Source: Roseobacter weihaiensis (GTDB lineage Bacteria; Pseudomonadota; Alphaproteobacteria; Rhodobacterales; Rhodobacteraceae). Taken from it: DNA of 64,000 bases. Below the pieces are notes generated by a model. The model saw nothing but the letters and a program-made list of their open reading frames with translations. It was not told the DNA's origin and made no database searches. The stretch covers positions 1 to 64,000 of the forward strand of contig NZ_JACNMO010000008.1 in the NCBI RefSeq assembly GCF_020622345.1, read 5' to 3'. Of this stretch, positions 10,588 through 57,978 are shown piece after piece. Every line of letters starts with the position of its first letter. The stretch's first letter is position 1. A program made the translations under genes and the position numbers.

Positions 10588-10601
10588 TTGATATTTGTCA
10601 A
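10588..10601. promoter_or_regulatory. FNR/FixK-type operator TTGATATTTGTCAA (site 1)
   Basis: Matches TTGAT-N4-ATCAA with one mismatch. Its centre (10594.5) is 61.5 bp from the flavodoxin start on the plus strand and 59.5 bp from the crp start on the minus strand. Activation from -41.5 in either direction would leave leaders of about 20 bases. Confidence 0.8.
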
Positions 10602-10655
10602 CGGCCTCGCAGCACGCAGTGCCAAAAAGAGCGAAACAGAATTGGAGATGTCCGG

Positions 10656-11162
10656 ATGGATCGTACCAACAAGACTGCAGTGGTCTATTTCTCACTGACC
10701 GGTCATTCACAGCGATTGGCCACACGATTGGCACGGGCCTTGGGGGGTGAGCTGATCGCACTGAACGCCCCCTCTTACCGGTCCGGCCTTCTGGGCTACC
10801 TGCATGCCGGTTTCGACAGCGTTCGGAAAAAATGTGTTCTGGCGCCGCAACGCTTTACCACCCTTGCAGATTTTGACCGGCTTGTGCTTTGTGGTCCGGT
10901 CTGGACCTCCTACCCCGCCACACCCTTGCGGGCCCTCTTGCGCTCGGACATTGACCTGCCCGCATCGGTCAATGTGTTCCTGACCACCGGCAGCCAGTCC
11001 TCCGCGGAAAAGGCGTTGACCGTCGCGGAACAGGATCTGGGGCGCGCCCTGACGGCCACCGCATTTCTTGTCAACAGCGCAGAAGGGACCGAGCAGGAGA
11101 ATACCGTGGTCGAGGCGTTTTTACGCACTGTCGGCGCCGTGGCCCAAGATGAAGCCAGTTGA
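10656..11162 (+). CDS. Flavodoxin-like protein
   Basis: A 168-residue flavodoxin-fold protein. The FMN phosphate loop is visible as VVYFSLTGHSQRLA near residue 10, and a second flavin-contacting loop as GPVWTSYPATPLRA near residue 80. It has no predicted membrane segment. Such proteins carry electrons or reduce quinones in the cytoplasm. This family is often annotated only as flavodoxin or NAD(P)H-dependent oxidoreductase, and the partner is unknown. The start is well supported by GGAG eight bases upstream. Operator site 1 lies 61.5 bp upstream, so it is probably switched on when oxygen falls. A 200 bp gap separates it from phaC, and they may be one transcript. Confidence 0.82.
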   Translation: MDRTNKTAVVYFSLTGHSQRLATRLARALGGELIALNAPSYRSGLLGYLHAGFDSVRKKCVLAPQRFTTLADFDRLVLCGPVWTSYPATPLRALLRSDIDLPASVNVFLTTGSQSSAEKALTVAEQDLGRALTATAFLVNSAEGTEQENTVVEAFLRTVGAVAQDEAS

Positions 11163-11361
11163 AGATACCGCGTGAGATGACCGTATCCCAGAAGATTGCC
11201 GGGATGGACAAGCACCCGACCGCGCCTGGCAAGGCCCCTGCGGTCCGCAAGCTGCCAAACCATTGCGACGATGACTGTGCGCGCATATTGCCAAGTGCTG
11301 TGAGCGGAGACCGTCGCCCAGCCACGCCCCGAGGCGGGGTACATTCGGAAAGGTCGCGGCG

Positions 11362-13011
11362 GTGACGGCAAAGTCGAATAACATCAGGGGGCTGGATGCC
11401 GTTTGGCATTCGATCATCGGGCAGTTTACCGGCGGCCTGTCGCCAGCCGCCCTTGCCACCGCCTATACGGATTGGTCTTTGCACCTGCTGGCCTCGCCGG
11501 AAAAGCAGGCAGAGCTGCTCAGCGCCACTTTGACCGCCGGGGCTGCCGAAACCGCACAGGACCCACGCTTTCAACATCCCAGCTGGCAGACATTGCCCTA
11601 CAACCTCTATGCACAGGGGTTTCTGGCCGTTCAGAACTGGTGGGACAAGGCAACCGGCGACATGCCGGGGGTAGACCCCAAACATGCACGCATGATGAAT
11701 TTTGCCGCCCGCCAGTGGCTTGACATGATGGCACCCACAAACTTTGCCCTGACCAACCCGCAGGTGCTGGAACGTGCGGTGGAGGAACGCGGGCAGAACC
11801 TCATCCGCGGGACCCGCTACTGGATGGAAGACTTCAACCGGATGATTTCGGGCCACCCCCGGCGCGCCAGCGTGCACAGCGTTGGCACCGATCTGGCCAC
11901 GACGCCCGGCGACATCGTCCTGAGAAATGAGCTGGTCGAGTTGATCCGGTACCGGCCGACAACCGAAAAACTCTATCCTGAACCGATCCTGATCGTGCCC
12001 GCCTGGATCATGAAGTACTACATTCTGGACCTGACCGATCAACGATCGCTTGTAGCCTATCTTCGGGACCAGGGGTTCGAGGTCTTTATCCTGTCCTGGA
12101 AGAACCCGGACGCCGCGGATGCGGAGCTGTCGATGCAGGATTACCTTGACCTCGGCCCCCGCGCCGCGCTGACGCATCTCAGGCAGCTGGGCGCAACGCG
12201 GGTGCATGCCGTCGGGTACTGTCTGGGCGGCACGCTGCTTTCCATCGCGGCTGCGGCCATGGCGCGGGATCAGGATCGCACACTGGCTTCGGTCAGCCTC
12301 CTGGCCTCGCAGGTGGATTTCTCCGAGCCCGGCGAACTGAGCCTTTTCATCAGCGAAAGCCAGGTGGCCTTTCTTGAGGATCTGATGACCACCCAAGGCT
12401 ATCTGAAAGCCGACCAGATGGCGGGGGCCTTTCAACTGCTGCGCACAAATGATCTGATCTGGAGCCGCGTCGTGCGCCACTACCTGCTCGGGGAACGTAC
12501 AAAGGACAACCCCCTGATGGCCTGGAATGCGGATGCGACGCGGATGCCGGCCAAAATGCACTCTGAATACCTCAGACGTCTGTTTTTGGAAAATGCGCTG
12601 GCGAAGGGCCGGTTCAAGGTTGATGGTGCCTCGGTCGCCCTCACTGATATCCGCTGTCCGATCTATTGCGTGGCAACAGAACAGGACCATGTGTCACCCT
12701 GGCAATCTGTCTACAGGCTGCTGATGCTTACCGACACGGATGTGACCTTCGTGCTGACAAACGGCGGCCATAACGGCGGCATCCTGTCCGAGCCCGGCCA
12801 CAAGAACCGCCATTACCGCGCAGCGCACAAAACGGAAGGCGATGCGCATGTCACGGCGCCCGACTGGTTCGACCGTCATGCGCCTCATGACGGGTCCTGG
12901 TGGACGCATTGGTCGGAGTGGATGAAAACCCAGAGCGGCGATGCGGTGGACCCCCGCTCGCCGCCCGTAAAGTCCTATGGAAGCGCACCCGGCCACTATG
13001 TGCTTGGATAG
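11362..13011 (+). CDS. phaC: Poly(3-hydroxyalkanoate) synthase PhaC
   Basis: PhaC polymerises hydroxyacyl-CoA into polyester on granule surfaces. The 549-residue protein contains the lipase-like box with catalytic Cys287 in GYCLGG, the Asp of ATEQDHVSPW and the His of NGGHNGG near residue 472, giving a complete Cys-Asp-His triad. Length and the N-terminal WHSIIGQF..GGLSP region fit single-subunit (class I-like) enzymes. The start is a GTG with a GAAAGG ribosome site. It faces a phasin gene end-to-end with 2 bp between. No phaA or phaB is present here. Polymer synthesis would give an electron sink under oxygen limitation, which agrees with the neighbouring operators. Confidence 0.93.
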   Translation: MTAKSNNIRGLDAVWHSIIGQFTGGLSPAALATAYTDWSLHLLASPEKQAELLSATLTAGAAETAQDPRFQHPSWQTLPYNLYAQGFLAVQNWWDKATGDMPGVDPKHARMMNFAARQWLDMMAPTNFALTNPQVLERAVEERGQNLIRGTRYWMEDFNRMISGHPRRASVHSVGTDLATTPGDIVLRNELVELIRYRPTTEKLYPEPILIVPAWIMKYYILDLTDQRSLVAYLRDQGFEVFILSWKNPDAADAELSMQDYLDLGPRAALTHLRQLGATRVHAVGYCLGGTLLSIAAAAMARDQDRTLASVSLLASQVDFSEPGELSLFISESQVAFLEDLMTTQGYLKADQMAGAFQLLRTNDLIWSRVVRHYLLGERTKDNPLMAWNADATRMPAKMHSEYLRRLFLENALAKGRFKVDGASVALTDIRCPIYCVATEQDHVSPWQSVYRLLMLTDTDVTFVLTNGGHNGGILSEPGHKNRHYRAAHKTEGDAHVTAPDWFDRHAPHDGSWWTHWSEWMKTQSGDAVDPRSPPVKSYGSAPGHYVLG

Positions 13012-13013
13012 GT

Positions 13014-13361
13014 TCAGGGTGTCTTGTTGCCCGGTGTCGGGGCGAATGCCTTGGCGCCCATCTCAACCAGTTTCCCGGTTTCGGCCTGATATTGATCCAA
13101 CGCTTTCCGAATGAATTCCGCCTGGATCTGCTGAAGGTCCGCCACGTTCTTGCAGTGCAGTATTTCATGCTGGGTTTTCACATCTTCCTTGATCCGCTCC
13201 GCCACGAAACTGGCCATCTCGGCCCCCATATCGCTCAGCGCTTCCACCCAGGCCGTGCTGGCCCCCATGAAATTTCCAAGGCCCGCTTCTTGAAGCTGCG
13301 AAAGCGCGTTCAAGGGTGTTTCGCTGCTTGGCTTTGATTCCTTGTCTTGTTTATTCGCCAT
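13014..13361 (-). CDS. Phasin-family granule-associated protein
   Basis: A 115-residue mainly helical protein starting MANKQDKESK with a strong GGAGGATC ribosome site. Helical segments such as NFMGASTAWVEALSDMGAEM and the closing KALDQYQAETGKLVEMG..AFA are typical of the phasin_2 group, which coats PHB granules. It converges with phaC, supporting the call. An operator (site 2) lies 67.5 bp upstream and is shared with the divergent P-type ATPase gene. A longer frame extends upstream to 13619 but would cross the operator and lacks a ribosome site. Confidence 0.85.
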   Translation of the reverse strand: MANKQDKESKPSSETPLNALSQLQEAGLGNFMGASTAWVEALSDMGAEMASFVAERIKEDVKTQHEILHCKNVADLQQIQAEFIRKALDQYQAETGKLVEMGAKAFAPTPGNKTP

Positions 13362-13421
13362 GTCTGATCCTCCAGTGAATGTTGGCTGATTTGAGAATAA
13401 TCCAACTTGGTGCGGCGCTGA

Positions 13422-13435
13422 TTGACATTGCTCAA
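13422..13435. promoter_or_regulatory. FNR/FixK-type operator TTGACATTGCTCAA (site 2)
   Basis: Two mismatches to TTGAT-N4-ATCAA. The centre lies 67.5 bp from the phasin start and 65.5 bp from the P-type ATPase TTG start at 13494. The near-symmetry suggests one dimer serves both directions. Confidence 0.72.
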
Positions 13436-13493
13436 TGCGCCCGCGCACCGACAACAGGTATCGAAGGCAGGCCACCCCAGTTGGAGAGTTCTT

Positions 13494-16073
13494 TTGCCAA
13501 CCTTCAATCACGACTCTGGCCTGACGCCAGAGCAAGTACAGGCTGCGCGGGAACGTTCCGGCTGGAACGAGTTGCCGGTCGCAAAGACCGCCAGCGCACT
13601 TGGGGTCTTCTTGCGGCAATTCTCAAGTTTCTTGATCATCATCCTCATCGTCGCTGCCGGCGTGGCGGTTGCGCTCGGAGAGGTCCTGGATGCCGCAACA
13701 ATCGGCGTTGTGGTCTTGCTCAACGCCGTCTTGGGGTTTGTGCAGGAGTGGAAGGCGGAGACCGCCCTGGCGTCGCTGCGCAAGATGCTGGCCCCCAAGG
13801 CCATGGTCATAAGAGACGGTGAAGAGCAGGTCATTCCCGCCCGCGAGGTTGTGCCGGGGGATATTCTTGTTCTGTCTCCGGGCATCAAGGTCGCCGCCGA
13901 TGCAGTATTGCTCCGCGCCTCCGAGCTGCGCGCGGATGAGAGCATCCTGACGGGGGAGTCGGTGCCGGTTCCCAAATCACCCGACGCCGCAGAACCCGTC
14001 GTTTTTACAGGCACCGCAATCGTTGCCGGGCGCGGCGAAGCCCGCGTCACCGCGATCGGGGCAAATACCGAATTCGGCAAGATCGCCGATCTGACAGGGG
14101 CCGTCGGACCCAAGGTCACGAACCTTCAGGTCAAGCTGGGCCAGCTTGCGCGCCAGCTGGGTATCGCCGCCATCCTGGTGGCTGCCGGGGTAAGCATCCT
14201 TGGCGTCGCTCTGGGGCGCGACATCGGTGAAATGGTTATGACCGGGTTGTCCCTCTCTGTCGCAATGGTTCCCGAGGGGCTGCCTGCGGTGGTCACGATC
14301 ACGCTGGCTCTCGGGGCAACGGCGATGGTGCGCCAGAACGCTCTGGCCAGACGCTTGCAGGCCGTCGAAACGCTTGGTGCGGCGTCGGTCATCTGCACCG
14401 ACAAAACCGGCACCCTCACCGAAAACAAGATGACCGCCACCCATATCTGGACGGTGGATCGGACCTACGACGTCACGGGGACGGGCTATGACCCGGCAGG
14501 ACATATCGAAGCCAACGGCCAAAGACTTCGAGCGGGTGACGACCCTCTCTTGGCGGCCGTTCTGCAAACCGGGCTGTTTTGCAGCCACGCCCGCCTCACC
14601 CGGCAAGGTGACACATGGACCATGACCGGTGCGCCGACCGAAGGGGCCCTTGTCACCCTGGCTTACAAGGGATGGTGCGCTCCTTCGCAGGAGCAGGCCC
14701 TTCTGGCCGAGATCCCTTTCAGCAGCGCCCGAAAGCGCATGAGTGTTCTTTATCAATCGCCTGACGGCATGGTGGTGCTGTCCAAGGGCGCGCCCGAGCA
14801 GATACTGGAAATCTGCTCACGCATCATGGGCCAAGATGGCCTGCAAGACCTCACGCCCGAGCACATTGCGACCATAAACGCAGCCTACGCTGACTTGGCA
14901 GCCCGGGGTTTGCGGGTCATTGCGCTGGCACAGCGCAGCACCGCCGATCCCAAGATCGTCGAGGAAGACCTGACATTTCTGGGGCTTGTCGGCCTTATCG
15001 ATCCGCCCAGACAAGAGGTGAAAGCCGCCATCGCCTCGGCAGTGTCGGCCGGGATACGTGTCATCATGATCACCGGGGACAGTCCGATCACCGCAACGGC
15101 CATCGCAAACCAGCTGGCACTGGATGTGGAAACCCCGCTCACGGGAGCAGAGCTCGACCAGTTGACCGATGAGGCATTGGCCGAGCTGCTGGCCCAAAAC
15201 GTGCTGTTTGCCCGCACGAAGCCAGAGCAGAAGATGCGGATCGTCGGAACGCTGCAAAGCCAGGGTCAGATCGTGGCAATGACCGGTGACGGCGTCAATG
15301 ACGCCCCTGCCCTCAAGAAAGCAGACATCGGCGTGGCCATGGGTATTCGGGGAACGGATGTTGCCCAGGACGCCTCGGATCTGGTGCTGCTGGATGACAA
15401 CTTTGCCACGATTGTAAGGGCGATCGGCGAAGGCAGACGCCAATTCGCCAACGTCCGCAAGTTCGTTCGGTACCTTTTGTCCTCAAATGCGGGAGAGGTC
15501 ATCGCTCTCGTCGTCAACATCGCCATCGGTGGCCCGCTGATCTTTCTGGCAACGCAAATCCTCTGGATGAACCTCGTCACCGATGGGGTGACCGCCGTTG
15601 CGCTCGGCATGGAAAAATCCGAACCGGACCAGATGCAACACCCGCCGCGCCGCAAGAACACACAGATCCTCGGTGCGGGGGGCATTCTGTCCATCCTCCT
15701 GCTGGGCCTTTACACCGGCGGGGCCAGCCTCTGGATCTTCTTTCAGCTTTTGGATCAGGGGGTGGAACTCGCCCGCACAACCGCGTTTACTGCCATGGTC
15801 TTTTTCGAAAAAGCCAGTGTTTTTGCGTTCAGATCGCTCCGCCTGCCGGGCTGGAAAATCGGCTGGTTCAGCAACCCTTTCCTGCTGGCCGCGCTCGCCG
15901 TGACCCTGAGCGCGCAGGTTCTGGCGGTCTATTGGCCTCCCCTGCAGGCGATGCTGCGCACCGTGCCGATCGGCCCTGCGGAATGGCTGTGGATCGCGAT
16001 TTTTACAATCCCGATCCTGATCGTTCCCGAAGTTTTGAAGGCGCTGGCGCTATGGCATCAGCGCACCACGTAA
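13494..16073 (+). CDS. P-type cation ATPase, Ca2+/P2A-like
   Basis: An ion pump of about 859 residues with all P-type landmarks: the actuator motif DESILTGESVPVP, phosphorylation site ICTDKTGTLTENKM (Asp303), and hinge TGDGVNDAPALKKADIG. The membrane motif PEGLPAVVTI in M4 and LWMNLVTDGVTAVALGME in M6 match SERCA/PMR1-like Ca2+ pumps more than heavy-metal pumps. There is no N-terminal metal domain. I chose the TTG at 13494 because GGAGAG lies six bases upstream. A longer reading from 13422 would begin inside operator site 2. The gene converges on the Na+/Ca2+ exchanger with a 16 bp overlap, so two calcium-type transporters sit side by side. Confidence 0.9.
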   Translation: MPTFNHDSGLTPEQVQAARERSGWNELPVAKTASALGVFLRQFSSFLIIILIVAAGVAVALGEVLDAATIGVVVLLNAVLGFVQEWKAETALASLRKMLAPKAMVIRDGEEQVIPAREVVPGDILVLSPGIKVAADAVLLRASELRADESILTGESVPVPKSPDAAEPVVFTGTAIVAGRGEARVTAIGANTEFGKIADLTGAVGPKVTNLQVKLGQLARQLGIAAILVAAGVSILGVALGRDIGEMVMTGLSLSVAMVPEGLPAVVTITLALGATAMVRQNALARRLQAVETLGAASVICTDKTGTLTENKMTATHIWTVDRTYDVTGTGYDPAGHIEANGQRLRAGDDPLLAAVLQTGLFCSHARLTRQGDTWTMTGAPTEGALVTLAYKGWCAPSQEQALLAEIPFSSARKRMSVLYQSPDGMVVLSKGAPEQILEICSRIMGQDGLQDLTPEHIATINAAYADLAARGLRVIALAQRSTADPKIVEEDLTFLGLVGLIDPPRQEVKAAIASAVSAGIRVIMITGDSPITATAIANQLALDVETPLTGAELDQLTDEALAELLAQNVLFARTKPEQKMRIVGTLQSQGQIVAMTGDGVNDAPALKKADIGVAMGIRGTDVAQDASDLVLLDDNFATIVRAIGEGRRQFANVRKFVRYLLSSNAGEVIALVVNIAIGGPLIFLATQILWMNLVTDGVTAVALGMEKSEPDQMQHPPRRKNTQILGAGGILSILLLGLYTGGASLWIFFQLLDQGVELARTTAFTAMVFFEKASVFAFRSLRLPGWKIGWFSNPFLLAALAVTLSAQVLAVYWPPLQAMLRTVPIGPAEWLWIAIFTIPILIVPEVLKALALWHQRTT

Positions 16074-17095
16074 TAGGCGACGAGGCTGGCCAGAAAGGTG
16101 ATAAGCACGAGGATGGAATCCAGCCCGAATGTGCCGATTTTGGGTTTGCGCCGGACGATCAGCCCGACGAGATAGATTGCGGTGACCGCGATGCCAAACG
16201 AGAGCGCAAGGCTGACGGTCTGGGAGGTCTGTTGCAGGATGGGCCCCTCCCGAAACAGAATATCTGCCGGGAAAACCAAGACCAGCATGATGAGGTTGCT
16301 GCCAAAAATATTGGAAATCGCCATCGTGTAGGCCCCGATGCGAACCGCCGTGATGCTTGTTGTCAATTCCGGCAAAGAGGTCGCCACCGCCAGCAGCGTC
16401 ACCCCGATAAACCCTGTGCCAAGGCCCGATTGCGCCGCGATGCGCTCGGCAAAAAAGACAAGCAATATGCCAAACAGGAGAATGGCCAGGCAGGCGACGA
16501 TGGCTTGCCAGACAAGGGAGGCATTCACCGTTTCCGCCAGACCGGAAGGCGCCGGAAAGGGCAGCGGTTCAGGATCGGGCAGATCAACCGGCACCCAATC
16601 GCTCTCATTGTCATAGCGGCGCAAGAGCCAGACCGCCCCGGCATATGTCCCCACGATCAAAATGCTGCCAAATCCGACATTGTAGATCACAAAGGTTTCG
16701 CCCAGGCTGGTGATGATCAAGGCGACAGAGAGCAAAAGAACCAGTAATGTCGCCTCCAGAGCGTGATTGGCCTTGCGCGGGTAGTTGGTAATCGCACCAC
16801 GCGCCCAAAAATCCGACATGGCAAGAATGGCCGTTTGCAGCGCAATACCGCCAAAGAGGTTGTTCAACACGAGATCACGCGCTTGCTGGGCCGCGGCGGT
16901 CAATGTCGTCGCGACCTCGGGCAGTGAGGTTGCCAAAGACAACAGCAGCAGCCCCACCAGCGATTTTGCCAGTTTGAACCGATCCGCCAGCGTATCGGCC
17001 AGATAGGCAAGGCGCGCCCCGGAGATCCACACCACAGCCGCGCAGCACAGGAACGCCAGCAGGCTCTGTATCAAGGAGGTTTCGGGAATACCCAT
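16058..17095 (-). CDS. Na+/Ca2+ exchanger-family (CaCA) membrane protein
   Basis: The protein shows the duplicated CaCA repeat: LLLLSLATSLPEVATTLTAA in the first half and GFIGVTLLAVATSLPELTTS in the second, each with the acidic residue that binds the ion. The GGIALQTAI/GSNLIMLVL segments are the partner helices. About ten transmembrane helices are expected over 345 residues. It exchanges a divalent cation, probably Ca2+, against Na+ or H+ across the inner membrane. I favour the ATG at 17095, because an upstream frame to 17239 runs through operator site 3. The operator centre is 40.5 bp from this ATG, so the transcript may have almost no leader. Confidence 0.87.
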   Translation of the reverse strand: MGIPETSLIQSLLAFLCCAAVVWISGARLAYLADTLADRFKLAKSLVGLLLLSLATSLPEVATTLTAAAQQARDLVLNNLFGGIALQTAILAMSDFWARGAITNYPRKANHALEATLLVLLLSVALIITSLGETFVIYNVGFGSILIVGTYAGAVWLLRRYDNESDWVPVDLPDPEPLPFPAPSGLAETVNASLVWQAIVACLAILLFGILLVFFAERIAAQSGLGTGFIGVTLLAVATSLPELTTSITAVRIGAYTMAISNIFGSNLIMLVLVFPADILFREGPILQQTSQTVSLALSFGIAVTAIYLVGLIVRRKPKIGTFGLDSILVLITFLASLVAYYVVR

Positions 17096-17128
17096 GGCCT
17101 TGCGGTAGCGAATTTCCGCAAGAGCCAT

Positions 17129-17142
17129 TTGATATCGCTCAA
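17129..17142. promoter_or_regulatory. FNR/FixK-type operator TTGATATCGCTCAA (site 3)
   Basis: One mismatch to TTGAT-N4-ATCAA. It sits midway between the divergent exchanger and VIT-family genes: the centre is 40.5 bp from one ATG and 41.5 bp from the other, much closer than at most other sites. Confidence 0.75.
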
Positions 17143-17176
17143 TCCATGCCCCTGGCGCGGGTGAGAACATGCACCT

Positions 17177-17899
17177 ATGCAACAAGAGCACGGTCACAGC
17201 CGCACAGAAATTGCCCAACGCCTGTCCTCCGGAAACCAAGCTGCGTATCTAAAAGACATGATCTACGGCGGCATCGACGGGGCCGTGACGACCTTCGCCA
17301 TCGTGGCCGGCGTCGAAGGTGCGGGGCTCTCCCACGGTGTCATCGTCACACTTGGCATCGCGAATATCCTTGCGGATGGGTTCTCGATGGCGGCCAGCAA
17401 CTACTCCGGCACAAAGGCCGAACTCGATGATCGCAAGCGGATTATTCGCATTGAGGAGCAACACCTTGAAGACCACAAGGACGGCGAATTGGAAGAGTTG
17501 CGCCAGATCCTGGCCCTGCGTGGATTATCCGGCGAGGTTCTGACACAGGCGACTGACCTGATCTCTCAGGACAAGGCAAAATGGATCGATCTGATGCTTA
17601 CGGACGAATACGGCCTATCCAAGGATCAACCGCACCCCATCCGCGCGGCATTGGCGACATTCGGAGCCTTTCTCATGGCCGGGTCAGTGCCGCTGATTCC
17701 GTATGTGATCGAGATGAAAAACGCACTCCAAATATCTGTTTTTGCAACTCTTTTAACATTCTTCCTCATTGGCGCCTGCAAAAGCCGGTGGTCCCTGTCG
17801 CGGTGGTGGTGGTCGGGATTGGAGACTTTTGCAATCGGGGCCTTGGCCGCCTTGATTGCCTTTGGCGTTGGCGGGCTCTTTCATCTCGCAGGCGATTGA
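17177..17899 (+). CDS. VIT1/CCC1-family Fe2+/Mn2+ transporter
   Basis: A 240-residue protein of the VIT1/CCC1 family. The conserved start DMIYGGIDGAVTTFAIVAG and the following GIANILADGFSMAASNY form the first two helices of the metal path. A charged, largely helical cytoplasmic stretch (about 85-150, rich in Glu) probably collects the metal. Three more helices finish the protein (about 155-235). Eukaryotic members load iron into vacuoles; bacterial ones are thought to export or store Fe2+ or Mn2+. Exporting ferrous iron would make sense when oxygen falls and Fe2+ rises. It is probably cotranscribed with the site-2 protease gene 48 bp downstream. Confidence 0.88.
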   Translation: MQQEHGHSRTEIAQRLSSGNQAAYLKDMIYGGIDGAVTTFAIVAGVEGAGLSHGVIVTLGIANILADGFSMAASNYSGTKAELDDRKRIIRIEEQHLEDHKDGELEELRQILALRGLSGEVLTQATDLISQDKAKWIDLMLTDEYGLSKDQPHPIRAALATFGAFLMAGSVPLIPYVIEMKNALQISVFATLLTFFLIGACKSRWSLSRWWWSGLETFAIGALAALIAFGVGGLFHLAGD

Positions 17900-17947
17900 G
17901 CAAAATCAAAAAAACCGAGCCAACGTCATGATACTCTTACGCCAACG

Positions 17948-19656: not shown

Positions 19657-19687
19657 AACGGCTCTCTTTTCTGATGGGCGGTGCGGA

Positions 19688-20125: not shown

Positions 20126-20180
20126 GGTCCACTCCTGATCGGTTCGCACCTGCAGATTTGCAGATCGGATCAATTGAGCG

Positions 20181-20194
20181 TTGACCAATATCAA
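20181..20194. promoter_or_regulatory. FNR/FixK-type operator TTGACCAATATCAA (site 4)
   Basis: One mismatch to TTGAT-N4-ATCAA. The centre is 62.5 bp from the host-attachment-family GTG and 66.5 bp from the hybrid kinase ATG. TGTAAT at 20217-20222 is a suitable -10 for the kinase. This would place the oxygen sensor under control of the regulators it feeds. Confidence 0.78.
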
Positions 20195-20253
20195 TCTAAG
20201 CTTGCGTCTGCCGCGATGTAATCAGCAGGCGTCATAGGAAAGTGAGGGAGGCG

Positions 20254-22639: not shown

Positions 22640-22656
22640 AAACCGTGCAGTTTAGT

Positions 22657-46195: not shown

Positions 46196-46215
46196 TCAGG
46201 CGGTCGATATCGCGG

Positions 46216-46221: not shown

Positions 46222-46228
46222 CAGCGTC

Positions 46229-51614: not shown

Positions 51615-52249
51615 CTGCCCGCCACGACATCCGCCAGAGCGCGCAGGATCATCGCACTGGACGTGGCCCCCGGATCCTGGTGGCCTTTGCTGCGGTCGCC
51701 CAGATAGCTGGCGCGCCCACGTTGGGCCAGCATCGGCACCGTGGCACTGGCCCCCGCCTCTGCGGCTTTTGCAGCCGCCTGCACCGCTAACGAAACTGTC
51801 CCGCCCTGGGTGGCCTCCATGCGGCAGGCGACCGCTGCGGGATCAAGCGCGTCGATCATGGTCTTCATGCCGGTCTCGGCTTTCCCGCGTTTCTTGACCG
51901 CTGCCACGGCCTCCTCCAGGGCGGACGCCAGCGCGTCGATATCGAGTGGTGCCGCGCCCTCAAACCTCTTGGCGAGCGCCAGAAAATAGGTGCCATAAAG
52001 CGGGCCCGCAGCGCCCCCGACCTTGGAAATCAGCGCCATGGCGACGGCCTTGGCCACAGCGGCGGGATCCTCTCCCGGCGGCAGGGCGGCGCTGGCCGCA
52101 TTGAAGCCGCGCTGCATGTTGTTGCCATGGTCGGCATCTCCGATCGGACTGTCGAGATCGGTCAGATAAGCGCGGTTTTCAGACAACACATCCGCCGCCT
52201 TCCTGATCCAATCGCGCAGGGTGTCCGCTGTCAGAACACTTTGTGTCAA
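51611..52249 (-). CDS. dhaL: Dihydroxyacetone kinase ADP-binding subunit DhaL
   Basis: A 212-residue all-helical subunit that keeps ADP/ATP bound and transfers phosphate from DhaM to substrate on DhaK. The metal-binding aspartates and loop are visible as LTDLDSPIGDADHGNNMQRGF (about residues 27-47), and GGAAGPLYGTYF and GRASYLGDRSKGHQDPGA are family motifs. The frame begins with TTG, one base after the dhaK stop, so translation probably relies on coupling. No ATP-dependent DAK C-terminal fusion is present, which confirms the PTS-dependent type. Confidence 0.93.
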   Translation of the reverse strand: MTQSVLTADTLRDWIRKAADVLSENRAYLTDLDSPIGDADHGNNMQRGFNAASAALPPGEDPAAVAKAVAMALISKVGGAAGPLYGTYFLALAKRFEGAAPLDIDALASALEEAVAAVKKRGKAETGMKTMIDALDPAAVACRMEATQGGTVSLAVQAAAKAAEAGASATVPMLAQRGRASYLGDRSKGHQDPGATSSAMILRALADVVAGR

Positions 52250-52250
52250 C

Positions 52251-53318
52251 TCAACACCCCCACCGCAAGGCGGGTGTGTTCACCGGCGCGTCGTAAAGCC
52301 TCAGAATCTCCTCATCCGTCTTGACCAGCGTGATCGACATGCCTGCCATCTCCAGCGAGGTAATGTAATTGCCCACCAGATTCCGGATGATCTTTACTCC
52401 ATGCCGCCCCGCCACCTCGGCCAGTTTTGCATAAACGGTGTAAAGTTCAGAGAGCGGTGTGCCGCCCATACCGTTCACGATGGCGATCACCTGGTCCCCG
52501 GACTGAAAGGTGATGTCTTTCACTTCGACATCCACCCAGTCCTGCTGCGCCCTGTCCCATTCGGGCAATGCGCGCGTATAGGCCTCATCCTCCAGAATAT
52601 GATTGGCGAGGATTTCAGTCACGGCATCTGCGCTCTTGATCTTTGTCCGCGCCACGCCGGGTTCTCCGTGGATACCGATGCCGATCTCCATCTCTCCCTC
52701 CGGCAGGTCGAAACTGGGCTTGCCATTCTGCGGCGTCGTGCAGGAGGTGAGCGCCATGCCCATGCTCTTGCCAAAGATATTCACCTTTCGGCAGAGCGCC
52801 GCCAAGCGGTCCAGATCGTACCCCTCCCGGGCGGCAGCACCACAGACCTTTTCGGCAATCAATGTCGTGCCCAGCCCGCGCCGCCCGGCGGTATAAAGAG
52901 AATCCTTCAAAGCCACATCGTCATCGATGACGATATTGCGCACCTCGATCCCGTCTTCGCGCAGCATGTCGGCAGCCATCTGGAAATTCAGCACATCGCC
53001 GGTATAGTTCTTGACGATCTGCAGCAGACCCCGGTCGCCTGCAACCCTCTTTCCCGCCGCAACCATCTGATCCGGTGTCGGCGAGGTAAAGACCTGACCA
53101 GGACAGGCCGCATCCAGCATGCCAAGCCCCACGAAACCGCCATGCAGAGGTTCATGCCCGGACCCGCCGCCCGAGATCACCGCCACCCGGTCCTGCGCCC
53201 CATCCACCGCGGAGACGAACGTGGGATCGCTGTGAACTTCGATATCCTCATGCGCCAGTCCAAACCCATGCAGCTGTTCAACCGTCACATCTTCGGCGTT
53301 ATTGATGAGTTTTTTCAT
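52251..53318 (-). CDS. dhaK: Dihydroxyacetone kinase substrate-binding subunit DhaK
   Basis: A 355-residue subunit that binds dihydroxyacetone covalently through His217 in GIGIHGEPG. The N-terminal GGGSGHEPLHGGFVG and NYTGDVLNF motifs are also conserved. Together with DhaL and DhaM it makes dihydroxyacetone phosphate for glycolysis. The ATG at 53318 has GGGAGGTGA upstream; an earlier GTG at 53333 is less likely. It overlaps the glpF stop by 4 bp. Glycerol would enter by GlpF, but no glycerol dehydrogenase is seen in the window, so how dihydroxyacetone is made is open. Confidence 0.95.
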   Translation of the reverse strand: MKKLINNAEDVTVEQLHGFGLAHEDIEVHSDPTFVSAVDGAQDRVAVISGGGSGHEPLHGGFVGLGMLDAACPGQVFTSPTPDQMVAAGKRVAGDRGLLQIVKNYTGDVLNFQMAADMLREDGIEVRNIVIDDDVALKDSLYTAGRRGLGTTLIAEKVCGAAAREGYDLDRLAALCRKVNIFGKSMGMALTSCTTPQNGKPSFDLPEGEMEIGIGIHGEPGVARTKIKSADAVTEILANHILEDEAYTRALPEWDRAQQDWVDVEVKDITFQSGDQVIAIVNGMGGTPLSELYTVYAKLAEVAGRHGVKIIRNLVGNYITSLEMAGMSITLVKTDEEILRLYDAPVNTPALRWGC

Positions 53319-54160
53319 TTCGTCACCTCCCACTCCGGGCGCTCGGTGTCATAGGTCTCGAAGACGCCCCGGTAAAATCCGCGGTAGAACGCGCCGGCAA
53401 TCAGGCCGCCGCAGATGCTGGCGATGCTGGGGATCCACCATCCGCCCCGCGGTCCGGGCAAGGCCATCTCGCCCCAGCCGAAGAAGAATGACACGACCCG
53501 CGGCCCCAGATCGCGCGCCGGATTCATTGCCGTCATCGAAATCGGTGCTTCATAGGCCACCAATGCGGCCACCAGCAGCCCGATGAAGAACGGGGCCAGA
53601 TTGGCCGACGGCGCTGAGGTGTTGTGCTGGTCGGTCAGGAACAGCACGCCAAACACAAGAATGCCGGTGGTGAAGGCCTCCGACAAAAACCACTGGGTGA
53701 GCGAGACCTGTGCAAATGCCTCCGGCGTCGTTCCGATGAAGGCGGGATTGGGCGCGTAGGTACCGAACCCCATTGCACTCAACTGGCTGCCGGGCTGGCC
53801 GCGCACGATCTCGGCTCCAAGCTCGAATTGCGCCACGATCCCCGCGTAAAATCCATAAATCGCGGCTGACGCCAGTATGGCTCCGATGAACTGCGCCAGG
53901 ATATAGGGGGCCACCTTGGCCCAAGGGAACCCCGTGAAAACCGCCATCGTGAGGGTCACGGCGGGGTTGATGTGACCGCCCGAGATCTTGCCGGACGCAT
54001 ACACCCCGAAGGTCACGCCAAGCGCGAACATCAAGGCAACGGGCCAAAGGCTCAATCCCCCGGTCCAGACCGACACGGCAACGGCCCCAACGCCAAAGAG
54101 CACCAGAATGAATGTGCCGATCGCCTCCGCGATCATTTCGTGAAAGATCGATCTCTGCAT
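53315..54160 (-). CDS. glpF: Aquaglyceroporin (GlpF-type MIP channel)
   Basis: A 281-residue MIP-family channel with six helices and both half-helix motifs: GGHINPAVTLTMA and AMNPARDLGPRV. The second motif followed by D-L-G-P-R is the glycerol-facilitator form. It also has the extended loop typical of GlpF between helices 3 and 4. It should let glycerol, and possibly dihydroxyacetone, enter down its gradient. The ATG at 54160 is nine bases after GGGAGG; upstream starts are weaker. First gene of glpF-dhaKLM, with operator site 11 108.5 bp upstream. Confidence 0.92.
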   Translation of the reverse strand: MQRSIFHEMIAEAIGTFILVLFGVGAVAVSVWTGGLSLWPVALMFALGVTFGVYASGKISGGHINPAVTLTMAVFTGFPWAKVAPYILAQFIGAILASAAIYGFYAGIVAQFELGAEIVRGQPGSQLSAMGFGTYAPNPAFIGTTPEAFAQVSLTQWFLSEAFTTGILVFGVLFLTDQHNTSAPSANLAPFFIGLLVAALVAYEAPISMTAMNPARDLGPRVVSFFFGWGEMALPGPRGGWWIPSIASICGGLIAGAFYRGFYRGVFETYDTERPEWEVTK

Positions 54161-54261
54161 GGCGGACATCCTCCCAGGTTGTCTTGCAAACGCATGTCGC
54201 GACGCCACGCAGGTGCAGGGCGACAACAGGAGCGAAGCTACAATCTGCCGTCCCCGCTGGA

Positions 54262-54275
54262 TTGATCGATATCAA
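54262..54275. promoter_or_regulatory. FNR/FixK-type operator TTGATCGATATCAA (site 11), perfect
   Basis: Exact TTGAT-N4-ATCAA. Centre 108.5 bp upstream of glpF. It lies 58 bp from site 12, which faces the divergent Usp gene. Confidence 0.87.
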
Positions 54276-54319: not shown

Positions 54320-54333
54320 TTGATCCAGATCAG
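54320..54333. promoter_or_regulatory. FNR/FixK-type operator TTGATCCAGATCAG (site 12)
   Basis: One mismatch to TTGAT-N4-ATCAA. Centre 87.5 bp upstream of the Usp gene at 54414. Here the two divergent units each have a site rather than sharing one. Confidence 0.78.
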
Positions 54334-54413: not shown

Positions 54414-55259
54414 ATGGAACGCGCGACAGTGCTTTTTGTGGTGACGCAGGACACACCAGATGAGGTGATATCGGAGTTGGCCGAGGCCTCGGCCCAAGAG
54501 CAGATGCATCTGAGCTGCATGCTCTTGGGCATCGCGCCGCCGCTGCCGATGTACGCCTACGGCGTTCCCCCCTATGGCACAATGAGTGTCCCGGATAACT
54601 GGGCAGAGGTCACCAATGCCGCCAACGACCGGCAAAATCAGCGCGCAGAGCAGATCGAAGGCCTCTTGGCGCGCAGCGGCACCTCGGGGGACGTTCTGTC
54701 CCATCTCTGTGCAACGATGGACATGAAACATCTGGTCGCGCGCCGGGCGCGGGTCTGCGACATCGCGCATTTTGCATCAGACCTGTCCGACACACCCGAT
54801 ATCCTGCGCGAAGCGGCCCATGGGATATTGTTTCAATCTCCCATTGGGCTGATCCTGAACGACACGCCCTGCCTGAAACCGCAGCGCATCTTCGTGGCCT
54901 GGAACAGAAGCGATGCGGTCTCGAAAGCGGTTCACTTGGCCTTGCCGTACCTGAAGAACGCGCAGGAGGTCATCATCGGATGTTTTGATCCCGTCATGAC
55001 TCCGGAGAAAGAAGGGGCCGATCCAGGGACCGACGTCGCCGCATGGCTCAGCCACCACGGCTGCAACGTCACCGTGTCCCAATATCCCAGTGGCGGGGAG
55101 GAAATCGCCCAAGGCATTCAGGATCGCGCGAAGGAGGTGGGCGCAGACCTTGTTGTCATGGGGGCTTACGGGCATGCACGTCTGATGGAGGCTGTTTTTG
55201 GCGGCACCACCCGGACGATGATGGAGCAGACGGAACTGCCCGTCCTTATGGCGCATTGA
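54414..55259 (+). CDS. Tandem-domain universal stress protein
   Basis: A 281-residue protein of two Usp-type halves. The C-terminal half has the full nucleotide loop GAYGHARLMEAVFGGTT (G-2x-G-9x-G-T) and ADLVVMGAYG. The N-terminal half (VLFVVTQDTPDEVISELAEA) lacks it and contains a Tyr/Pro-rich insertion around residues 40-60. It resembles the tandem protein at 25777 in layout but the two are not close copies. GGAG precedes the ATG. A strong hairpin 84 bp downstream ends the unit. Confidence 0.87.
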   Translation: MERATVLFVVTQDTPDEVISELAEASAQEQMHLSCMLLGIAPPLPMYAYGVPPYGTMSVPDNWAEVTNAANDRQNQRAEQIEGLLARSGTSGDVLSHLCATMDMKHLVARRARVCDIAHFASDLSDTPDILREAAHGILFQSPIGLILNDTPCLKPQRIFVAWNRSDAVSKAVHLALPYLKNAQEVIIGCFDPVMTPEKEGADPGTDVAAWLSHHGCNVTVSQYPSGGEEIAQGIQDRAKEVGADLVVMGAYGHARLMEAVFGGTTRTMMEQTELPVLMAH

Positions 55260-55342
55260 TCGCGGCCTTTCGGGCAAATGAAAGGTGTTGTCGCACAGAA
55301 GCGTTCAACGCATCCCGCCGCTACGCAAAGGTCGCCTGAGGG

Positions 55343-55375
55343 GCTTGCAGGCTGAAACCTCTGAAGCCTGCAAGC
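55343..55375. terminator. Strong hairpin between convergent Usp and MBL genes
   Basis: GCTTGCAGGCT (55343-55353) pairs perfectly with AGCCTGCAAGC (55365-55375) around an 11-base loop. It lies between two convergent genes and probably terminates both directions. No T-run is obvious. Confidence 0.65.
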
Positions 55376-55387
55376 AGCTGCGCGAAA

Positions 55388-56269
55388 TCAGATCGCGTTC
55401 AGCGGCACTTTCAGCATCGGCTTTCCACCATCGCCTTTTGGCAAAACCCCGGCGCGCATGTTGACCTGCAACGAAGGCAAGATCAGATTGGGCATCTGGA
55501 GTGTCGCGTCCCGTGCTTTTCGAAACCTGATGAACTTTGCACGGGATGTCCCTTTGCCAACATGGATGTTTTCGGCTTTTTCTTCGGCGACGGTGGTTTC
55601 CCACATGATGTCGCGCCCGCCCGGCGCATAGTCATGGCACATGAAGAGCCGCATTTCATCGGGCAAGGCGAGAACCTTTTGAATTGAGTCGTAAAGCTGG
55701 CCTGCGTCTCCTCCCGGGAAATCCGCGCGGGCCGACCCGCCATCCGGCATGAACAATGTATCGCCAACAAAAGCGGCATCCCCCACCACATGCACCATAC
55801 AGGCGGGCGTGTGTCCGGGCGTGTGCATGGCAAAGGCGGTGATCTCCCCGATCTGGTAGGTGTCGCCATCCTTGAACAGCCTGTCGAACTGCGACCCGTC
55901 CCTTTGAAACTCTGTTCCTTCGTTGAACACTTTGCCAAAGGTGTCCTGAACAACGGTGATCTGCTCGCCAATGCCGATCAGCCCGCCCAGTTTCGACTGG
56001 AGGTAGGGGGCGGCGGATAGATGATCGGCATGCACATGGGTTTCGATCAACCATTCCAGTTTAAGGTCATGTTTGTGGATGTACGCGATGATTTCATCGG
56101 CGTGATCGTAGGTGATCCGACCGGCCGCGTAATCGATATCCATCACCGGATCGACCACGGCGCAGGCGTTTGTCTTCTGCTCCACCACAACATGGCTGAT
56201 CGTGTTCGTCTGCGGGTCGAAAAACGACTCGACCGCCGGATGCACGCTGATATCTACAGGATATTTCAT
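55388..56269 (-). CDS. MBL-fold metallohydrolase, persulfide-dioxygenase-like
   Basis: A 293-residue metallo-beta-lactamase-fold protein. Metal ligands are visible in ETHVHADHLSAAPYL (HxHxDH, residues about 76-81), HTPGHTPACMVHVV, FVGDTLFMPDGGSARADFPG and MCHDYAPGG. The ADHLSAA and PDGGSARADFPGG patterns are those of the ETHE1/Blh group, which oxidise persulfides or otherwise act on sulfur compounds; a glyoxalase II role is less likely. GGAG lies before the ATG. Operator site 13 is 106.5 bp upstream. A truncated YeeE-type sulfur transporter lies at 63252 but is not linked. Confidence 0.82.
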   Translation of the reverse strand: MKYPVDISVHPAVESFFDPQTNTISHVVVEQKTNACAVVDPVMDIDYAAGRITYDHADEIIAYIHKHDLKLEWLIETHVHADHLSAAPYLQSKLGGLIGIGEQITVVQDTFGKVFNEGTEFQRDGSQFDRLFKDGDTYQIGEITAFAMHTPGHTPACMVHVVGDAAFVGDTLFMPDGGSARADFPGGDAGQLYDSIQKVLALPDEMRLFMCHDYAPGGRDIMWETTVAEEKAENIHVGKGTSRAKFIRFRKARDATLQMPNLILPSLQVNMRAGVLPKGDGGKPMLKVPLNAI

Positions 56270-56368
56270 TGTTCAATTCTCCGCTTTCGGGCTATCGCGA
56301 GGATCATGGGCGCAAGACTAGGACCCTTCCGTGACAAGATCACGGTCGCGCAAGAACACCAAACAGGA

Positions 56369-56382
56369 TTGAGAAATATCAA
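56369..56382. promoter_or_regulatory. FNR/FixK-type operator TTGAGAAATATCAA (site 13)
   Basis: One mismatch to TTGAT-N4-ATCAA. Centre 106.5 bp upstream of the MBL-fold gene. Confidence 0.7.
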
Positions 56383-56461
56383 CCCCCACGGATACGGCCC
56401 GCCCGCACTCTGATCCCATTGAAACCACCCCGCAGGCCCCGAATATCCCCAAACCATGCGC

Positions 56462-57646
56462 TCAACAGTCATCACCCGGCCCGACCTGCGCCTGCTCTGT
56501 TTTCCGTATCGCGATCAGGGTCGCGATCGGTCCCAATATCTCGAAAATCACCGTGCTGCCGATGGTCATGGCGATGATCTCCGACCGCCACTCGGGAAAC
56601 CTCTGGGATGCGACAAGAGCCATGCCGATCGCAATGCCCGCTTGCGGCATGAGCGCGATGCCGTACCAGATCCGCTCCTGCGCGGGCGCCCGTGCAAGAT
56701 GGGCCCCAAGCCATCCACCAAAGACCCGCGCCACCAGGCGCAAGGCAATAAAGCCAAAGCCAACAAGGCCCAGAGACAGGGCAACCTCGATCTCCAACGC
56801 GGCCCCGGCAAGAATGAAGAACAAAACCATGAACGGCCATTGGATGTGCTCGATTTCATGGAACGCCTTCTGGTGGTGTGACGCGGCATTCACGATGACG
56901 GCCCCAACCGTCATCCCGGCAATCAGAAAACTCACCTCGAGCCAGAGCGCCAACCCGGCGGTCAGAAACACAAGGCTGAGCGCTTCGACTTCAAGCGGCT
57001 CTCCGTCGTTCAGTCGCCCGGTCAGAAATGCGGCAGGTGCCCCGACAAGCGCGCCCAATAGAACGGCGCCAAAGACCTCCCAGCCCGCATCCGACAGCCC
57101 CGTCCCGGCGGACTGGCCGTTCAGGTGGGAAACCACCACCAGCGTGAAACTGAACACGATCAACCCCCACACATCATCGATCGCAACAATGCCCCGCAGG
57201 GTCTGTGTGAAACGATTGTCGCGGCCCGATTGGGTAATGACATCATTTGTCGCAGCCGGCGCCGTGGCCGTCGCAATCGCAGCAAGCAAAAGCGCAAGGC
57301 CAAGAGGCACCCCGACCGCGACAAGACCGCCCCCCACGACAACCAGTGTCACGAAGACAATACTCATTGAAATCAGAAGGATCGCGGCACCATTGCGTCG
57401 CAGGTTTTCCAGCTTCAGCGCGCTGCCCAGCAAAAAGGCCACCATGGTGAGTGCTGTCACCGACAGAAATTCGTACCAATCCCAAAGGCTATCCGGAATG
57501 AGGCCAAAGCCTGACCCGCCGGCCAGCAAACCAAGAAGCAGGAGCAACGTCACGCGGGGAAAACCTGTTTGGCGGGCTAACAGATCAGCCATCAGACCCG
57601 CCAGAAACAACGCCCCAAGTGCGACAAGGGATAAAGGATTGGTCAC
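56462..57646 (-). CDS. Na+/H+ antiporter-like cation:proton antiporter (CPA)
   Basis: A membrane protein of about 394 residues with some 11-12 helices. The core ion-site motifs are TAPAATNDVITQSG, followed by VAIDDVWGLIVF with the two acidic residues expected in electrogenic CPA2-type antiporters, and LFFILAGAALE later. It would exchange Na+ or K+ for H+ and help keep pH and ion balance when respiration slows. I favour the GTG at 57646 because the frame further up (to 57712) overlaps the small lipoprotein gene; no ribosome site is clear and coupling to that gene is likely. Confidence 0.8.
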   Translation of the reverse strand: MTNPLSLVALGALFLAGLMADLLARQTGFPRVTLLLLLGLLAGGSGFGLIPDSLWDWYEFLSVTALTMVAFLLGSALKLENLRRNGAAILLISMSIVFVTLVVVGGGLVAVGVPLGLALLLAAIATATAPAATNDVITQSGRDNRFTQTLRGIVAIDDVWGLIVFSFTLVVVSHLNGQSAGTGLSDAGWEVFGAVLLGALVGAPAAFLTGRLNDGEPLEVEALSLVFLTAGLALWLEVSFLIAGMTVGAVIVNAASHHQKAFHEIEHIQWPFMVLFFILAGAALEIEVALSLGLVGFGFIALRLVARVFGGWLGAHLARAPAQERIWYGIALMPQAGIAIGMALVASQRFPEWRSEIIAMTIGSTVIFEILGPIATLIAIRKTEQAQVGPGDDC

Positions 57647-57653
57647 GATGCCG

Positions 57654-57806
57654 CTAGCGTAGCGGAATGCAATCCGACGCGTCCAGCCCTCTGACCGGAT
57701 CATCCGGGCCACATTCCTCGTCGGTTATGGGGTATCTGTCCTCACGAATGCAGCCGGAGATCAGCAGGACCAGTGAAATCATAAAGAGTGATTGGACGAG
57801 TTTCAT
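57654..57806 (-). CDS. Small lipoprotein, 50 residues
   Basis: A short gene with a good ribosome site (GGAG seven bases before the ATG). The protein starts MKLVQSLFMISLVLLISGC, a signal peptide with a lipobox ending at Cys19, followed by a polar mature part of 31 residues with two more cysteines and many acids (IREDRYPITDEECG). It should be anchored to a membrane facing the periplasm. It ends 8 bp before the antiporter start, and operator site 15 is 68.5 bp upstream. No family is recognised; similar tiny lipoproteins are rarely annotated. Confidence 0.68.
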   Translation of the reverse strand: MKLVQSLFMISLVLLISGCIREDRYPITDEECGPDDPVRGLDASDCIPLR

Positions 57807-57867
57807 AGTTTACTCCGCGTTGATTGTTTCTGTCAGGCCATCCTTAGCGGGTGCCCGCCTTTGCCTT

Positions 57868-57881
57868 TTGATTTTCCTCAA
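57868..57881. promoter_or_regulatory. FNR/FixK-type operator TTGATTTTCCTCAA (site 15)
   Basis: One mismatch to TTGAT-N4-ATCAA. Centre 68.5 bp upstream of the small lipoprotein gene on the minus strand. Confidence 0.75.
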
Positions 57882-57964
57882 CCGCAAAAAGCCTTCCCGC
57901 GCCTCTGCGCATCACCTGCTTTCCGGAGCCTACAGCACGTCAAAGGTAATTTCTCCAGATGCCA

Positions 57965-57978
57965 TTGATATTCGTCAA
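57965..57978. promoter_or_regulatory. FNR/FixK-type operator TTGATATTCGTCAA (site 14)
   Basis: One mismatch to TTGAT-N4-ATCAA. Centre 87.5 bp upstream of the GTG start of the HlyD-type gene. An ATG at 58005 would be only 33.5 bp away, too close for activation, which supports the GTG. Confidence 0.77.

Follow-up and report, generated by a model that had tools for sequence, protein, structure and literature searches.

Why are so many TTGAT-N4-ATCAA palindromes gathered between the genes of one 47.4-kb stretch of the Roseobacter weihaiensis genome, and which regulator reads them? The window, that is, the whole stretch of DNA analysed, comprises positions 1 to 64,000 of contig NZ_JACNMO010000008.1 (C90), one of 91 contigs in a draft genome of 5.35 Mb; the stretch in question, referred to below as the island, represents 0.9% of the genome length, with a coding share of 92% when gene starts are inferred by alignment with relatives. 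A sequence-only reading of the window had counted 15 such operators and proposed that a low-oxygen regulon had been collected in one place. The comparison of genes, operators, -10 geometry, K-box and conservation presented here makes it likely that the island is a self-contained low-oxygen regulon with its own hFixL-FxkR-FixK cascade and operator-tagged targets. From the same comparison we infer that oxygen is the signal, that phosphotransfer and FixK binding carry it, the direction of regulation, and that the island genes are expressed in an oxygen-dependent manner.

All 15 palindromes were found where they had been placed, two of them perfect, nine with one mismatch and four with two. A sixteenth, not listed earlier, lies at 17,896; it has an overlap of 4 bases with the vit1 stop codon, sits 42 bp ahead of the m50 gene, and is conserved in the congener G004 at 139576. 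The operators are given below with their neighbouring units and with the related sequences (G004, G060, G061, L032) in which they are conserved; a G004 counterpart was accepted with at most one mismatch to the pattern TTGAYNNNNRTCAA (TTGAY-N4-RTCAA) and at most two to TTGAT-N4-ATCAA.

10,588–10,601: between crp1 and the flavodoxin-like gene with phaC; G004
13,422–13,435: between the phasin and P-type ATPase genes; G004
17,129–17,142: between the Na/Ca exchanger and VIT1 genes; G004, L032
17,896–17,909: before the M50-CBS protease gene; G004
20,181–20,194: between the host-attachment-like/Usp operon and hFixL; G004, G060
25,139–25,152: between the bactofilin-like–DUF2267 and Hsp20–Usp units; perfect; G004, G061, L032
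28,045–28,058: before arcDABC; G004
34,701–34,714: before cbpA-cbpM-DUF5765; G004
39,847–39,860: before lonB, with a -10-like TAGACT at offset 21 towards lonB; weak counterpart in G004
40,015–40,028: before acs-E1-E2-ACP; G004
46,182–46,195: between the GATase gene and the PreATP-grasp–NOX-like unit, with -10-like hexamers on both sides; G004
54,262–54,275: before glpF-dhaKLM; perfect; glpF-dhaKLM not found in G004
54,320–54,333: before the Usp gene at 54,414; G004
56,369–56,382: before the MBL-fold hydrolase gene; G004
57,868–57,881: before the Na/H exchanger gene; G004
57,965–57,978: before hlyD-rbbA-ABC2; G004

A chance origin of this cluster was rejected on the basis of shuffles, genome counts and a 400-kb sample of the same genome. 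The window contains 52 sites with at most two mismatches, as compared with a mean of 20.6 and a maximum of 34 in 100 dinucleotide shuffles. The exact pattern TTGAYNNNNRTCAA occurs 40 times in the genome (its reversed control 5 times), with 6 occurrences in the island against 0.35 expected by length, for which a Poisson estimate made by hand gives approximately 2e-6. When one mismatch to TTGAT-N4-ATCAA is allowed, the genome contains 219 sites (reversed control, 19) and the island 12, with 1.9 expected. A matrix was also trained on 39 operators from related genomes, the number left after removal of the rows dropped from the -10 test described below and of the G004 site at 37,232; because these operators had been selected by means of the consensus, the matrix is not an independent check on it. 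At a score of at least 14 it finds 16 sites in the island, 9 in the 400-kb sample (about 1 per 47 kb) and none in the remaining 16.6 kb of the window, and the excess shrinks at lower thresholds, to 17 versus 3.6 per 47 kb at score 12 and to 29 versus 14.9, approximately twofold, at score 8. Equal density in the rest of the genome, the outcome that the sequence-only reading had set against its own proposal, did not appear in these comparisons.

The statement that all 15 operators lie between genes stands for 14, which are outside every aligned gene, and fails for the one at 13,422; with the sixteenth included, the count is 14 of 16, and 17,896 is the other exception. The operators at 17,129, 20,181 and 46,182 fall within the longest open reading frames (ORFs), outside the aligned parts of these. 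At 13,422 the TTG of the operator itself opens the ATPase ORF, and since the congener has the same DNA there, alignment does not settle the start; the true start is probably at about 13.5 kb and the early TTG is probably not used. By our own grouping of genes, 22 of 27 inferred transcription units have an upstream operator, in agreement with the claim that nearly all do. The five others are fxkR and fixK, with the K-box region in common, an exo/endonuclease-phosphatase gene at 26,606, a membrane protein gene at 27,372, and pfkB. The earlier distance of 60–108 bp to start codons proved only roughly right: aligned starts are mostly about 34–103 bp away, with outliers at 14 bp (the host-attachment-like gene), 234 bp (the Na/H exchanger) and 261 bp (lonB).

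Besides start-codon distance, the positions of -10-like hexamers also fit the proposal of FNR-type class II activation at -41.5. With the operator centre near -41.5, the -10 hexamer was expected, beforehand, to start about 21–22 bp after the operator; the bin of 20–23 bp was chosen after a first look at the spacing data. Of 75 oriented operator–gene pairs from seven genomes, the window included, 38 have a hexamer starting 20–23 bp past the end of the operator, whereas the 57 other four-base spacings have a mean of 8.1 and a maximum of 16. These pairs are non-independent in that related sequences are compared and some operators were entered twice, once per side, and a binomial value calculated from them is therefore too optimistic. 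By genome, the numbers are 10 of 24 in the window (other spacings: mean 2.2, largest 5), 11 of 23 in G004 (2.9, largest 7) and 17 of 28 in the rest (3.0, largest 8). Four of 79 oriented pairs had been dropped, namely the ptsI and e1 paralogs plus a K-box-like match at 26,355 in G062, in its two orientations. Of the window operators, 14 of 16 took part; 17,129, inside an over-long ORF, and 40,015, with two core mismatches, were left out. Class II geometry is thus supported as an average across promoters, and not for each promoter.

The regulators that would act on these operators are encoded inside the island, at 20,242–23,392, where the sequence supports a cascade of the hFixL-FxkR-FixK type with a K-box. 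Such a cascade with its K-box was experimentally described in Rhizobium (PMC7888657, PMC4999443). What R. etli and R. leguminosarum have in common with the island is a hybrid FixL-type kinase, the non-FixJ regulator FxkR, a K-box before fixK, and FixK acting (by prediction in the island) on TTGAT-N4-ATCAA (PMC7888657, PMC4999443). The elements in the island are as follows.

20,242–21,804, + strand: hFixL-type hybrid kinase, PAS–HisKA–HATPase–receiver (Pfam)
21,771–22,550, - strand: FxkR-type OmpR-family response regulator (Pfam Response_reg and Trans_reg_C)
22,624–22,639, + strand: K-box-like direct repeat GATACA-N4-GATACA upstream of fixK, in the fxkR-fixK gap
22,718–23,392, + strand: FixK-type Crp/Fnr regulator with the recognition helix ETVSR (best Protein Data Bank (PDB) match FixK2 4i2o, E 1.2e-35)

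The PAS domain of the kinase aligns to the heme PAS of S. meliloti FixL (1d06, E 1.6e-27), and the aligned histidine, in LHDSF, is conserved in all 9 distinct sequences, its own included; these 9 are the matches from 43 sources tried, many loci being too short to reach the PAS domain. This histidine is presumably the heme ligand. By sequence, the protein has the composition of a heme-PAS hybrid kinase with a receiver, for which binding of heme and oxygen is predicted. FxkR shares 50% identity with the regulator linked to hFixL and FixK on S. meliloti plasmid pB and 48% with one of R. phaseoli, as compared with 35–44% for its own paralogs (best 43–44%). In identity the OmpR-type protein encoded near fixK is accordingly closer to rhizobial FxkR than to its paralogs; its grouping with the rhizobial pair in the tree is weak (88/74), and the R. 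phaseoli protein carries no annotation beyond response regulator and has no hFixL or fixK gene beside it.

The exact repeat GWTACA-N4-GWTACA occurs once in the genome, at 22,624, in the fixK promoter region. The Rhizobium consensus is GTTACA-N4-GTTACA (PMC4999443, PMC7888657), as opposed to G[AT]TACA-N4-G[AT]TACA here, and the island copy differs from it by one base per half-site. Among the fixK loci compared, which are the best 30 of 36 matching genomes, own included, at about 3.6 kb each, fxkR is beside fixK in 28 (in one of them at a distance of over 1 kb), and hFixL lies within about 3.6 kb in 24. Over the 28 fxkR-fixK gaps, the two loci without fxkR in 3.6 kb being left out, 16 contain an exact K-box and 7 a copy with a single mismatch, 23 together with the own one counted, where resampled sequence would lead one to expect 0.07. 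In a six-genome comparison of this gap the single strongly conserved block is GATACA-N4-G[AT]TACA or a close variant. FixK itself is 36–43% identical to Sinorhizobium FixK and 32–34% to the FnrL-type proteins of its own genome. It has no N-terminal cysteine cluster and, lacking the cysteines of Fe-S sensors, is probably not itself oxygen-sensing.

According to the mechanism proposed here, a fall in oxygen would lead the heme-PAS hybrid kinase hFixL to drive phosphorylation of FxkR, which would act at the K-box to switch on fixK. As a class II activator bound near -41.5 at the TTGAT-N4-ATCAA operators, FixK would then turn on about 22 transcription units. The predicted targets include functions protecting proteins and membranes (the universal stress proteins Usp, Hsp20, CbpA, LonB, the M50-CBS protease), ion transport, storage of polyhydroxybutyrate (PHB), and low-oxygen energy metabolism through arginine deiminase, pyruvate dehydrogenase (PDH)/Acs and dihydroxyacetone (DHA) kinase. 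As one operator precedes hFixL, the circuit may reinforce itself. In deeper anoxia the FnrL-type proteins of the genome may take over the same operators; the staged scheme of R. leguminosarum, in which hFixL-FixK acts at microoxia and FnrN close to anoxia (PMC7888657), would be the natural model for the island and FnrL together.

Operators stay with their genes through rearrangement, as is seen from the synteny comparison that the sequence-only reading had called for. In G004 the island is split into two reordered blocks (C1:26–61 kb and 129–159 kb), and 39 of the 44 proteins from crp1 to hlyD have matches there of at least 35% identity. There, 14 of the 16 operators are upstream of the same genes, lonB having a weak counterpart only and glpF-dhaKLM not being found. 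At a matrix score of at least 14 these two stretches (72 kb) contain 25 sites versus 5 in 88 kb taken elsewhere on that contig, a count that is partly circular as the matrix training includes G004 sites. Four further genomes, G059, G060, G061 and G062, contain smaller, reordered versions of the island in which several of the same genes are again preceded by operators. LonB is found at E <= 1e-100 in 1 of 18 other genomes of the genus, which marks this part of the set, at least, as accessory; its closest named relatives are in Sulfitobacter sp. CW3 (64%), Rhodobacteraceae bacterium Alg231_04 (63%) and Palleronia (57%).

FixK has matches at E <= 1e-30 in 36 of 295 Rhodobacteraceae genomes, representing 35 of 294 genera, and 32 of the 36, own genome included, are at least 47% identical, although one of these matches covers a short stretch. 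With the limit set at E <= 1e-45, a threshold that would miss rhizobial FixK, 3 of 385 genomes sampled from the class have a match, all from the same family and own included. Parts of the set recur on both chromosomes and plasmids of Rhodobacteraceae. A 49-kb plasmid of Tropicibacter oceani has matches to 9 of the 44 island proteins, including the cascade, and a 60-kb RepABC plasmid of Leisingera aquaemixtae, NZ_CP041158.1, has matches to 17. The latter has a Crp/Fnr gene and fewer strong operators, one of them exact, at 54,132. P-type ATPases 67–69% identical to that of the window are encoded on 13 Leisingera plasmids among 20 records listed. It is also worth noting that the 337-kb Sulfitobacter plasmid pDSM110093_a, typed as mobilizable, has hFixL-FxkR-FixK near ccoNOP/ccoG, with exact operators before ccoG and ccoN. 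A RepABC plasmid location of the island contig itself was rejected: RepC matches are found only on contigs C27 and C29, and the congener's copy lies on a 1.27-Mb contig; this concerns the RepABC type only.

Several observations weigh against control of the island by its own cascade. The reversed K-box control also occurs once in the genome, and 5 of the 28 fxkR-fixK gaps have no K-box within one mismatch. FixK falls below every NCBIfam equivalog cut-off, and the tree, with its long branches, gives it no firm placement relative to rhizobial FixK. No good -10 hexamer is found at the expected spacing in 14 of the 24 window operator–gene pairs, and the operator before hFixL, present in the own genome, G004 and G060, is not at that place in G061 and G059. 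The two FnrL-type proteins encoded elsewhere in the genome (C35:189058 and C16:47393) share the ETVSR helix of FixK and carry N-terminal cysteines, so the operators do not prove control by FixK. The Leisingera plasmid has no match to hFixL, FxkR or FixK, yet contains 7 operator-like sites at a matrix score of at least 14, and G025, another member of the family, has two exact TTGAYNNNNRTCAA operators before lonB (C44:3798–3944) and no FixK match at E <= 1e-30; these may be read by FnrL. As the FnrL-type proteins should read the same operators, and as both these sequences keep operators without FixK, FixK control of each single promoter is put forward as a prediction. The operators might, then, serve mainly the Fe-S sensor FnrL, which directly activates usp genes in Dinoroseobacter shibae (PMC5398030), the in-island cascade controlling few of these genes. 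We regard this as unlikely, though it is the most serious of the alternatives, given that hFixL-FxkR-FixK sits inside operator-rich stretches together with the kit in G004, G060, G061, G062 and G059, and that an operator-rich block surrounds it in S. meliloti pB. The next cluster of exact TTGAYNNNNRTCAA sites in the genome, four in 21 kb of contig C35, is beside an FnrL-type gene, where a usp-like gene also adjoins the latter (C35:184488–189792); this locus may be the usual cco-usp-fnrL-hem core.

Another Crp/Fnr protein, either Crp1 (9,861–10,535) or a nitric oxide-sensing regulator of the Dnr type, could also read the sites, in which case the signal would not be oxygen. Crp1 carries an EVVSR helix, is encoded at the edge of the island with an operator adjoining its gene, and is present in G004 and G059, and Dnr regulators may recognise similar sites (PMC5398030); but Crp1 was not found in the examined stretches of G060, G061 and G062, which have both operators and FixK, and it is far from FNR/FixK in the tree, which makes this explanation improbable. 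Least credible of all, and very improbable in our view, is the ordinary clustering of independent FNR-regulated neighbours without common control or inheritance. Genes for Usp, Hsp20 and PHB functions are individually targets of FNR or FixK in other alphaproteobacteria (PMC2908626); however, 6 of the 40 exact operator sites of the genome fall within 0.9% of it, and much of the gene set recurs, rearranged, in other genera and on plasmids, which random co-location would not do.

The gene list of the sequence-only reading was correct, and Pfam and NCBIfam add to it a phasin, VIT1, an M50-CBS protease, PfkB, a phosphoenolpyruvate-dependent DHA kinase and RbbA. Apart from the cascade, the island and its edges encode the following.

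9,861–10,535, - strand: crp1, second Crp/Fnr regulator with an EVVSR helix (Pfam; best PDB match 3dv8; operator adjoins)
10,656–13,011, + strand: flavodoxin-like protein (weak match, below the Pfam curated cut-off) and PHB synthase PhaC
13,014–13,364, - strand: phasin (Pfam)
13,422–16,073, + strand: P-type cation ATPase (Pfam; true start probably at about 13.5 kb)
16,058–17,239, - strand: Na/Ca exchanger (aligned start near 17,095)
17,177–19,090, + strand: VIT1 transporter and M50-CBS site-2-type protease
19,210–20,194, - strand: Usp and host-attachment-like protein
23,441–25,096, - strand: DUF2267 protein and membrane protein weakly like bactofilin (match below the Pfam curated cut-off)
25,170–26,616, + strand: Hsp20 and Usp
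28,122–32,707, + strand: arginine deiminase pathway (ArcD/DcuC-type carrier, arginine deiminase, ornithine carbamoyltransferase (OTC), carbamate kinase)
32,678–34,640, - strand: DUF5765 protein, CbpM-like (MerR_2) and CbpA-like (DnaJ) proteins
34,880–35,761, - strand: PfkB-type sugar kinase (best PDB match 6-phosphofructokinase isozyme 2)
36,276–39,604, - strand: LonB-like protease, then a protein without a Pfam match
40,088–45,301, + strand: acetate-CoA ligase, fused PDH E1, E2, acyl carrier protein (ACP)
45,305–48,996: class II glutamine amidotransferase (GATase; -), PreATP-grasp protein (+), ferric-reductase/NADPH oxidase (NOX)-like protein (+, start uncertain)
49,179–54,226, - strand: DhaM-type protein fused to HPr and EI of the phosphotransferase system (PTS), DhaL, DhaK, GlpF-type channel
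54,414–57,712: Usp (+), metallo-beta-lactamase (MBL)-fold hydrolase (-), Na/H exchanger (-)
58,005–62,964, + strand: HlyD-type adaptor, RbbA, ABC-2 permease

Antisense ORFs favoured by GC content at third codon positions (among them those at 12,900, 19,243, 19,610, 25,705, 26,657, 34,676 and 43,755) were overruled by Pfam. The PfkB N-terminus looks short, because residue 5, counted from the first in-frame start codon at 35,761, aligns to residue 27 of 6-phosphofructokinase isozyme 2. The genes for acetate-CoA ligase, the fused PDH E1 alpha-beta, E2 and ACP form one operon (40,088–45,301) with no E3 called beside it; the order acs-E1-E2-ACP is also found in G004, G060 and the Tropicibacter plasmid. 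The genes for the glutamine amidotransferase, PreATP-grasp and ferric-reductase/NOX-like proteins (45,305–48,996) are grouped in G004 and lie close to one another in G061. About 5 kb past the last operon of the island, at C90:67905–69281 and near AraC-type regulators, there are relaxase-like and DUF3363 ORFs, the relaxase-like match being just below the Pfam cut-off; they are possible remains of a mobile element at the island edge.

The candidate targets of the island differ from those of R. leguminosarum, where fixNOQP and fnrN are named as targets, whereas here candidate stress, storage and fermentation genes are gathered around the cascade. The hFixL-FixK-FxkR block on plasmid pB of S. meliloti LMB1 is operator-dense as well (7 exact sites in 30.7 kb) and shares genes for Usp, a P-type ATPase, acetate-CoA ligase, OTC and CBS proteins; it differs in matching 5 of the 44 island proteins at 35% identity or more, and the stretch examined has a phosphoketolase gene, no PDH gene and no exact G[AT]TACA-N4-G[AT]TACA. 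The FnrL regulon of Dinoroseobacter shibae and Rhodobacter sphaeroides has the same operator sequence and usp targets (PMC5398030, PMC2908626), but FnrL senses oxygen by means of an Fe-S cluster, and FnrL-type genes are here on other contigs. The island does not encode a regulator with Fe-S cysteines together with its targets, the in-island FixK being without the N-terminal cluster.

The parallel drawn earlier with the mycobacterial DosR set, under a different regulator, stands as a likeness of gene families; the island regulators are a PAS–histidine kinase–receiver protein, an OmpR-type response regulator and two Crp/Fnr proteins. Rip3 is an M50-CBS protein, and other members of the DosR regulon are Usp proteins. 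Common to both is a hypoxia regulon driven by a heme sensor (predicted for the island), with a ctpF-type cation ATPase, PfkB, HspX (alpha-crystallin), Usp Rv2623 and the Rip3 metalloprotease on the mycobacterial side (PMC4082495, PMC5309233). The DosR regulon relies on DosS/DosT-DosR and nine gene blocks, as opposed to a three-step cascade to FixK, one block, and PHB and arginine deiminase genes here. The island may thus work like the DosR regulon without being a member of it, the likeness lying in gene families by name and not in the regulators.

A 2016 survey with 12 Rhodobacterales genomes in its motif set assigns only FnrN-type proteins to Rhodobacterales and traces FixKf and FxkR to an origin in Rhizobiaceae (PMC4999443), and FixK has been called generally restricted to Rhizobiales (PMC2908626). 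The FixK and cascade matches found in Rhodobacteraceae sequences would extend or correct these accounts. No report of an hFixL/FxkR/FixK cascade in Rhodobacteraceae, of a proteobacterial DosR-like or Anr/Usp island, or of the Leisingera plasmid kit was found among the titles and abstract starts of open-licence PubMed Central papers, absence there being weak evidence.

A broader reading, which we offer tentatively and rate as somewhat less probable than its opposite, is that sensor, relay, master regulator and operator-tagged kit form a transferable module, reshuffled and moved jointly between chromosomes and plasmids of the Roseobacter group, and amount to a DosR-like dormancy regulon built independently on FixK. 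Were this so, a recipient cell would gain a ready-wired hypoxia program. Under the main proposal, the hFixL-FxkR-FixK cascade, which in Rhizobiaceae serves nitrogen-fixing symbiosis, would be extended to about one-tenth of Rhodobacteraceae genera, and there would be a hypoxia program that is contiguous, brings its own switch and shares several protein families with the mycobacterial dormancy regulon. As the set is contiguous, the inheritance of a low-oxygen survival state as one unit would become testable.

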